Source: Polyangiaceae bacterium (GTDB taxonomy: Bacteria > Myxococcota_A > Polyangia > Polyangiales > Polyangiaceae). From it: DNA of 64,000 bases. The notes under the pieces were generated by a model, which was not told where the DNA came from, ran no database searches, and saw only the letters and a program-made list of their open reading frames with translations. The position numbers were made by a program, and so were the translations under genes. The stretch spans positions 62,001 through 126,000 of the forward strand of contig JABFXY010000026.1 in the NCBI GenBank assembly GCA_013361525.1, given 5' to 3'. Position 1 is the stretch's first letter; every line of letters begins with the position of its first letter. Positions 34,063 through 52,750 of the stretch are shown here, piece after piece.

Positions 34063-34484
34063 CGCGGCGCGCCCTTCCTCCACGTCAGCGCCCCGCGTCG
34101 CCCGTTGATCTCTTTTGATCCGGGCTCCCGAGCGAGCGGCGCCTGCGCTGGTAGCTTTCATCGTCGCCGGGTGGCTCACCTCGGCACGGTTCGGGGCGCG
34201 ATTTTCGTGATCAGAGGCGGGGCTCACGGGCATGTGAGTTGCAGCCGGGTCGGACCCGTACCGCCTGGGTTAATTTCAACAATCCCTCAAGGCCGGAGGG
34301 CCTGAAGTCCGCGTAGGACTACGGCGTGCGCAGCTCGCGAGGGGCTGGCACCCATGAACATCGCGCGTCGAGCAGCCACTCACGTCTCGTCGTCGCCGCT
34401 TTCCTTCGTTTCGTTCCTTTCCCCGCCGCTTTCTCAGGTTTGCCGCCGCGCGGCCGCAGGTCGTCCGCGCCGAAGGTTCTGCCC
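34063..34484. other. Intergenic region carrying a palindromic repeat, no gene seen
   Basis: These 422 bases between plus-strand genes contain no convincing reading frame. A Shine-Dalgarno-free stretch before the DUF1592 gene (34350-34484) is pyrimidine-rich in parts. The middle holds the tandem short-hairpin repeat listed at 34290-34346. Confidence 0.5.
34290..34346. repeat. Tandem short-hairpin repeat, copy 1
   Basis: Three consecutive hairpins with 5-base stems: AGGCC/GGCCT (34290-34303), AGTCC/GGACT (34306-34320) and AGCTC/GGGCT (34332-34346). The segment CTACGGCGTGCGCAG (34319-34333) recurs with one change at 52241-52255, and both copies continue into a hairpin followed by CTGGCAC. The stems differ between copies yet pair in each, indicating conserved structure. 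Confidence 0.65.
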
Positions 34485-51799: not shown

Positions 51800-51820
51800 A
51801 GCAACATCGTCGTCCGCCGT

Positions 51821-51958
51821 CAGTCATCGGAATTCGCTCGTCGGTCGTCGCTCGTCGATTCGTCGGCTGTCGATAGGTCGGTTGCCGATACGTCGGTTCG
51901 TCGGTCCGTCGGTTCGTCGGAATTCGCCGTCGGTCGTCGGATCCTCGGTCGTCGATGC
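51821..51958. repeat. Short degenerate tandem repeat (TCGTCGGT-like)
   Basis: About 16 degenerate copies of an 8-base unit TCGTCGGT/CGATCGGT-like run from 51821 to 51958. TCGGAATTCGC occurs twice (from 51827 and 51918). No spacers of regular length separate the units, so it is not CRISPR. It sits directly beside the four-helix-bundle pseudogene. Confidence 0.75.
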
Positions 51959-51959
51959 G

Positions 51960-52416
51960 AAATGGCCGCCGCGAAGCACGGCGGCCGCCCCCAACCGCTA
52001 CCAACGCCCCCAGCAACGCCGCCAAGCGCACCGCACAAGCCCGAAGCGCCGGCACCCGCGCCGTCTCAACGGCCCCGAGCATTGTCGCGCAATCGAGCGC
52101 GGAAACCGCCTCCGCCACCGAGCCCGGCGCGATGCTGAAGTGCCGATGGCGAATGCCCTGCCGGTCGGTCCGGCAACCCCTCCGCGATGTTCAGAACCGG
52201 ATTGGACGGAGTCCACGAAGTGGACGGAGTCCAGGGAGGTCTACGGAGTGCGCAGGTCACGAAGTGACCTGGCACGCGGTGAAACGCGCTCTTCGCGGCT
52301 CGGGTGGCCTGGTCCCGCAGCTCGGCGTCAGCGATGGCGGCCTGATGAACAAGGCAGGCGAACTCCCCGGCGACCACGTAAACGTCGAGCTGCTGAAAGG
52401 CGAGAATATCGTGCAC
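51960..52416 (-). pseudogene. Four-helix-bundle (S23/IVP-type) gene with insertion and frameshift
   Basis: GTG at 52416 has GGGAGG upstream and starts VHDILAFQQLDVYVVAGEFA, LRDQATRAAKSA, typical of 23S rRNA-intervening-sequence-type four-helix-bundle proteins. Then 87 bases of palindromic repeat (52198-52284) interrupt in frame before the conserved VLNIAEG. About 10 codons later, around 52161-52175, the frame shifts by one base; the remaining family sequence GIRHRHFSIAPGSVAEAVSA to LAALLGALVA continues in the other frame to about 51960. The in-frame stop is lost into the tandem repeat. The intact protein would be about 120 residues. Its role is unknown even in intact relatives. Confidence 0.8.
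52198..52284. repeat. In-frame palindromic insert, copy 2 of the short-hairpin repeat
   Basis: The 87-base element (29 codons) contains TGGACGGAGTCCA twice (52203-52215, 52221-52233), a hairpin GTCCAC/GTGGAC with loop GAA (52211-52225) and a 7-base stem AGGTCAC/GTGACCT with loop GAA (52254-52270). It shares CTACGGAGTGCGCAG with the element at 34290-34346. Being a multiple of three, it leaves the frame of the four-helix-bundle gene open. Confidence 0.7.
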
Positions 52417-52750
52417 GGGCGATCCTCCCGCCGGCGCCCGGAGCAGAGGCGGGAGGTCGCGCGGCGGGGCGTGGTGAGGACCCGATGCTGCCGGACCTGC
52501 GACGTCTATATCGAACCTTTGCGGTTGATCAGGCGGTTTTGGGGGGAAAACAGGCAAAACGTGGCGCACTAGGACAGTGTGGACCTGAGGACTGTGCGCC
52601 GCATGCCCGAGCGTAAGACTCGATTCGACAACGTCAGCCATGTCCCTGACCAACTCGTCAGTACGGGCAGGCTTGCATGCGCCGCGCGCTCCGTCGAACA
52701 TGTGAAATGACGTCGTATGCGTCGAGCTCGCTCGCGGAGCGGGGAGGGAG
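52417..52750. other. Intergenic region upstream of accessory module, no gene seen
   Basis: These 334 bases hold no convincing gene. A short stretch reading RRLYRTFAVD on the plus strand looks faintly like a transposase tail but lacks further match. Two GC-rich hairpin-like stretches occur near 52430-52480. The promoter of the downstream two-gene module is presumably here. Confidence 0.45.

Follow-up and report, generated by a model that had tools for sequence, protein, structure and literature searches.

Why does one gene of a paralogous set carry an additional hairpin that leaves its reading frame open, and does this hairpin belong to the gene or to something that moved into it? The locus lies on the minus strand of a 64,000-nucleotide stretch of a Polyangiaceae genome (the window), and the original prediction read it as an in-frame palindromic insertion recalling those of Rickettsia. 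The following features were recognized:

51964..52416, minus strand: decayed four-helix-bundle (S23/IVP-like) gene copy with a GTG start at 52416-52414, identified by blastn to in-genome paralogues
52281..52283, minus strand: left flanking TTC; TTC is also present at other insertion sites
52197..52280, minus strand: body of the palindromic element, 84 nt with two hairpins (ACCGCGTGCC...CCAATCCGG), with no counterpart in the paralogues and with homologues elsewhere in the genome and in relatives
52248..52275, minus strand: hairpin 1, GTGC-CAGGTCAC-TTC-GTGACCTG-(bulged C)-GCAC, from the fold and from covariation over 62 distinct copies
52203..52233, minus strand: hairpin 2, TGGAC-TCC-GTCCAC-TTC-GTGGAC-TCC-GTCCA, from the fold and from covariation
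52194..52196, minus strand: right flanking TTC; most family copies are followed by NTC
~52163, minus strand: separate +1 frameshift, an extra base in the alignment with L004, L001, and L003

The minus strand reads GCC GCG AAG AGC GCG T, TTC, ACCGCGTGCC...AATCCGG, TTC, and TGAACATCGCGGAG. The five in-genome paralogues of the gene (L001, L003, L004, L005, and L006; genome size 11.9 Mb) display instead an uninterrupted AAKSAFLNIAEG or AAKSTFLNIAEG, which corresponds to AAKSAF|LNIAEG. Relative to these, the window copy possesses 87 extra nucleotides, or 29 codons, across which the frame of the gene is not interrupted (AAKSAF-HRVPGHFVTCALRRPPWTPSTSWTPSNPV-LNIAEG). The in-frame hairpin insertion was thus confirmed: the uninterrupted paralogues rule out the extra codons as native sequence, and all five carry the empty site. 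The original prediction placed it between AAKSA and VLNIAEG; as a minor correction, the natural limits are TTC to TTC (AAKSAF|LNIAEG). The 87 nt equal the 84-nt body plus one repeated TTC if the codon before insertion was TTT (GCG TTT CTG AAC); we infer this codon for the window gene, the paralogues having TTC CTG or TTC TTG.

On either side of the insert, the gene copy shares 73-88% identity with its paralogues (blastn); the alignment reaches GCGTT and resumes from CTGAAC. The paralogues score above the cut-off of Pfam family PF05635, so the host gene is an S23/IVP gene by its paralogues, while the broken window copy itself gave no PF05635 match. The extra base at ~52163 agrees with the separate downstream one-base shift that had been claimed. 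The copy further differs from the paralogues in its 3' end, in one additional base that immediately precedes the GTG start, and in the loss of ~125 nt from the leader. By these comparisons, the gene copy looks like a decaying duplicate, one of several paralogues; metagenome assemblies may contain errors that mimic a shift by one base, but the remaining lesions are consistent with decay. The region 51800-51960 of the window, adjoining the gene, contains a run of degenerate short repeats (GTCGTCGG / GTCGGTT-type), and comparable runs occur at the flanks of paralogues L001 and L003.

Most genes of this family in the genome have a structured leader of their own:

52424..52456, minus strand: remnant of the long-hairpin leader (CCTCCCGCC...GGCGGGAGG), with ~125 nt of its middle gone relative to the paralogues
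L004:1313-1474, L001:1829-1992, L003:1825-1986, L005:790-954, and L006:1309-1471: leaders directly before S23/IVP genes (~165 nt)

The leader forms a nearly continuous hairpin, with 63 predicted pairs across the aligned stretch and the presumed ribosome-binding site within its closing stem. A leader model (R3) located the leader before two further PF05635 genes in the same genome, so that 7 of 9 PF05635 loci possess it. In G011, G045, and G046, the model matched ahead of genes that are divergent relatives of this one; the remaining matches were not accompanied by such a gene. No Rfam family matched the leader at curated score. The leader, the gene, and a hairpin on the 3' side seem to be dispersed together as one unit.

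Compared with shuffled sequences, the insert is far more stable in its fold, both as RNA (z -5.2, 0/200) and as DNA (z -3.4, 0/200). Its stems covary strongly: both sides had changed in 19 of the 20 stem pairs across 62 distinct copies, and 94.7% of the cells remained paired, with 0 of 500 shuffles as high, in an alignment that was fitted to the model and leans towards structure; in slid controls, the paired cells dropped to 22-42%. Members of the family are ~63-90 nt long and contain two subterminal hairpins whose stems are variable yet base-paired. The left end is TT(C/G)ACT or similar and the right end is usually YCGG. Terminal inverted repeats are absent, as seen from the left ACTTCGTGCC and from CCGGAGTGGA, the reverse complement of the right end. 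The motif GTAG is located between the two hairpins in the own-genome copies and in most copies of the genus-mate G001, but is unconserved in other relatives. The element had no Rfam match at curated thresholds.

Five copies were identified in the own genome: the window insert, a tandem pair at C1, one copy at C66, and a degraded one in the window:

34284..34358, minus strand: second, degraded, intergenic copy of the element, sharing an exact 15-mer with the insert and matched by covariance model R1, of which this sequence is one of the four training sequences

Thus, one of the five copies lies within a gene. As predicted, the CTACGG-N-GTGCGCAG segment of the insert recurs at 34319; its exact matches are at 34319 and 52241 and nowhere else in the 11.9-Mb genome. 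A loose search of this genome (E<=1) added weak matches only. The pattern GTGCGCAG-N{5,35}-CTGGCAC, tried on the own and related genomes, was rejected, its matches being mainly due to chance.

Beyond this genome, model R1, built from four sequences, matched 25 of 97 relatives, and a second model, R2 (71 matches), detected the element in 25 of the 108 family-level genomes. Copies number 17 in G001, the genus-mate richest in them, and ~40 in G073, most of these copies being carried in larger repeats and not representing independent insertions. Searching 84,980 species with an exact pattern gave matches only in records labelled Myxococcales, Polyangiaceae, Sorangiineae, Labilithrix, and delta proteobacterium; judged by such matches, the family appears to be found only in Myxococcota. 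In G073 (L112-L117), the element is embedded in a dispersed repeat of greater length, whose ends are inverted and TIR-like (GACCGCTTTCGATTTGACGCGA ... TCGCGTCAACTTGAAAGCGGTC). In G001 (L098-L108), a second palindrome (GACTCGTGCC...GGCACGAGTC) lies to the left of the element, and the two form a composite repeat.

Where an empty site could be read, the element lies at a TTC. Empty sites read GT-TTC-TG in the window gene; CA-TTC-TG in the G001 repeat, of which L103 holds an empty copy; GC-TTC-GAG (L139), TG-TTC-GAG (L137), and GGC-TTC-TGT (L081) in IS91 transposase genes; GGG-TTC-GTG in a serine recombinase gene (L167); and GGG-TTC-GAA in tRNA-Glu (L147). In the last case (L147:1430-1660, G117:C56), a tRNA-Glu(CTC) has its T-loop interrupted by the palindromic element (GGTTC|GAA). 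ARAGORN recognized tRNA-Glu(CTC) when the flanks were joined and found none in the actual sequence with the element; a second close copy of this tRNA was not found in that genome. On the right side of the copies, NTC was present in 62 of 76, with TTC in 35 of these 62. Several copies are flanked by TTC on both sides and some have TTG or TGC at the left end. With such left ends, a true duplication of TTC is no more than possible, and the element itself may include the TTC on its left.

Association with tRNA genes was pronounced. A tRNA gene occurred within 350 bp of 16 of the 76 surveyed copies against 0.4-0.7 expected (roughly 20-35x), the probabilities being only indicative since these copies come from related genomes and, in G001 and G073, share larger host repeats. 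A T-loop-like right flank (NTCGAN[CT]C) was present in 15 of the 76, and 11 of these 15 lie beside a tRNA. In the own genome, no copy has an ARAGORN-detected tRNA in its vicinity. Displaced or repeated 3' ends of tRNA or tmRNA adjoin the element at L165, L166, L084, and L089. At L165:1001-1280 (G109:C81), a tRNA-Ser gene is followed by ~206-nt tandem units, and the 3' half of the tRNA is repeated at the end of each. Tandem copies of the element joined by a single TTC (CCGG-TTC-ACT) were seen on C1, in G115, in G111, and on G001:C547. Perhaps the family prefers the tRNA T-loop. Searches of the literature for palindromes within bacterial tRNA genes returned nothing relevant, although such a negative does not prove that none exist.

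The element is dispersed into unrelated TTC sites, retains its double hairpin, and is over-represented at tRNA genes. We are confident that the 87-nt addition as a whole is best explained by a palindromic element that is mobile but non-autonomous and whose family is lineage-specific; this family is best read as a new one.

Which enzyme moves it bears on the closest rival, a REP-like repeat mobilized by a RAYT or an IS200/IS605-type Y1 transposase, with the left TTC as target and no true target duplication. Minimal IS200/IS605 derivatives have two subterminal hairpins, no TIR, and a fixed short target, and the anatomy of our element resembles theirs; the GTAG that the own-genome copies and most of those in G001 carry between their hairpins points in the same direction. 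However, this motif is not conserved in the relatives, and Y1_Tnp is missing from the own genome and from G001 with its 17 copies. Neither of these two assemblies, both ~92% complete, yielded a Y1/RAYT transposase, and no element flanks the Y1 genes of G073, G070, G031, and G002. The Y1/RAYT route gained no positive support from these searches and is on balance unlikely. The searches found neither a mobilizing enzyme nor an autonomous parent.

The original prediction had likened the insert to the Rickettsia palindromes, a comparison that is useful as an analogy only. A second rival would be a coding palindrome of the Rickettsia type, selected for in-frame insertion in genes and tolerated as an extra peptide. 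An in-frame mobile insert is indeed present, but no preference for ORFs was demonstrated, the strongest association being with tRNA genes. The survey for further in-frame copies in genes gave a mixed result. Counting only genes with a Pfam match or clear homology, as long spanning ORFs elsewhere are mostly spurious GC-rich frames, the net length is in-frame in the window gene (87), the L139 IS91 gene (66), a second IS91 gene, L081 (84), and the serine recombinase gene L167 (66). It is frame-breaking in the L137 IS91 gene (67) and, by our reading of the expected codon, in an ATPase gene, L169 (68). Four in-frame copies among the six of known length are not significantly more than one third, and these counts give no support to selection for in-frame insertion. 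The IS91 ORF of L139 stays open over 618 codons and matches both Zn_Tnp_IS91 and Y2_Tnp, and in the complete genome that holds L080 a divergent, in-frame copy lies immediately before the HTH of a LacI-type gene; like the other in-frame copies, both fit a coding role. The majority of copies, however, are intergenic or at tRNAs, and the window host gene is broken at other points. Since this gene has several paralogues and other lesions, its kept frame needs no selection and is most likely luck. A coding palindrome is accordingly an improbable account, and a coding role does not follow from finding a palindrome in-frame in a single gene.

The weakest reading, that the inserts are mini-introns removed from tRNA and mRNA by splicing or excision at the RNA level, could draw on the precise T-loop insertion with two intact tRNA halves and no other close tRNA match in that genome, but it is scarcely credible, as no self-splicing intron is known to be as short as the element, the predicted fold has no visible bulge-helix-bulge, many copies are intergenic, the assembly is incomplete, and a cell may do without tRNA-Glu(CTC), GAG being read by the UUC isoacceptor.

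For the mobile palindromic element, a mechanism may be sketched. Its favoured target would be the T-loop GGTTCGA, a direction of inference that is our own, and insertions such as that in the window gene would represent off-target use of the TTC core. A recombinase or transposase might act in trans on the folded ends. Perhaps the copies pass through circles that recombine at (GG)TTC, which would explain why tandem copies share one TTC; repeated insertion would fit such copies as well. Whether these traits amount to a new class, namely gene-less mobile DNA of 63-90 nt with two covarying hairpins, a T-loop TTC target, spill into other TTC sites including genes, and a candidate recombinase reading folded ends, is a tentative proposal to which we give somewhat less than an even chance. 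What is now defined is a structured palindromic family of Myxococcota whose target is linked to tRNAs and which offers clean empty-site pairs; with these pairs, it becomes possible to test how targets are chosen, how the ends are built, and which enzyme mobilizes the element.

Among known systems, the S23/IVP four-helix-bundle family (PF05635) includes the 23S rRNA intervening-sequence protein; the host gene, a member by its paralogues, is here found outside rRNA, dispersed, and with a long-hairpin leader. GTAG- and CGTC-tagged REP palindromes associated with RAYT are units of 20-40 bp with an end tag, described in a text that does not name myxobacteria (PMC3733652). The element resembles them in being a dispersed hairpin with grouped, sometimes intragenic copies and presumed non-autonomy, but differs in its 63-90 nt double hairpin, in having no conserved GTAG/CGTC tag at an end, and in that no Y1/RAYT transposase was found in the own genome or G001. 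With MITEs it shares small size, non-autonomy, dispersal, and the existence of empty sites, but not the terminal inverted repeats; in G073 it is the surrounding separate repeat that has TIR-like ends. Islands and phages that integrate into tRNA genes (T-loop att) also use the T-loop, and displaced or repeated tRNA/tmRNA 3' ends lie beside some copies of the element; the latter, however, is shorter than 100 nt, contains no integrase gene, and shares the TTC core only. Like the Rickettsia palindromic elements (RPE), it is short palindromic DNA found in-frame within genes and also in intergenic regions, but it belongs to an unrelated lineage, has a TTC core and a tRNA association, and displays no significant in-frame enrichment or demonstrated ORF preference. 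Its general kind is small non-autonomous palindromic mobile DNA. It works like RPE, REP, and MITE palindromes, but it lacks the defining features tested for GTAG/CGTC REPs (end tag, RAYT) and for MITEs (TIRs), and it departs from an RPE-like coding palindrome in its host gene, which the +1 shift, the leader deletion, and the changed 3' end mark as not otherwise functional.
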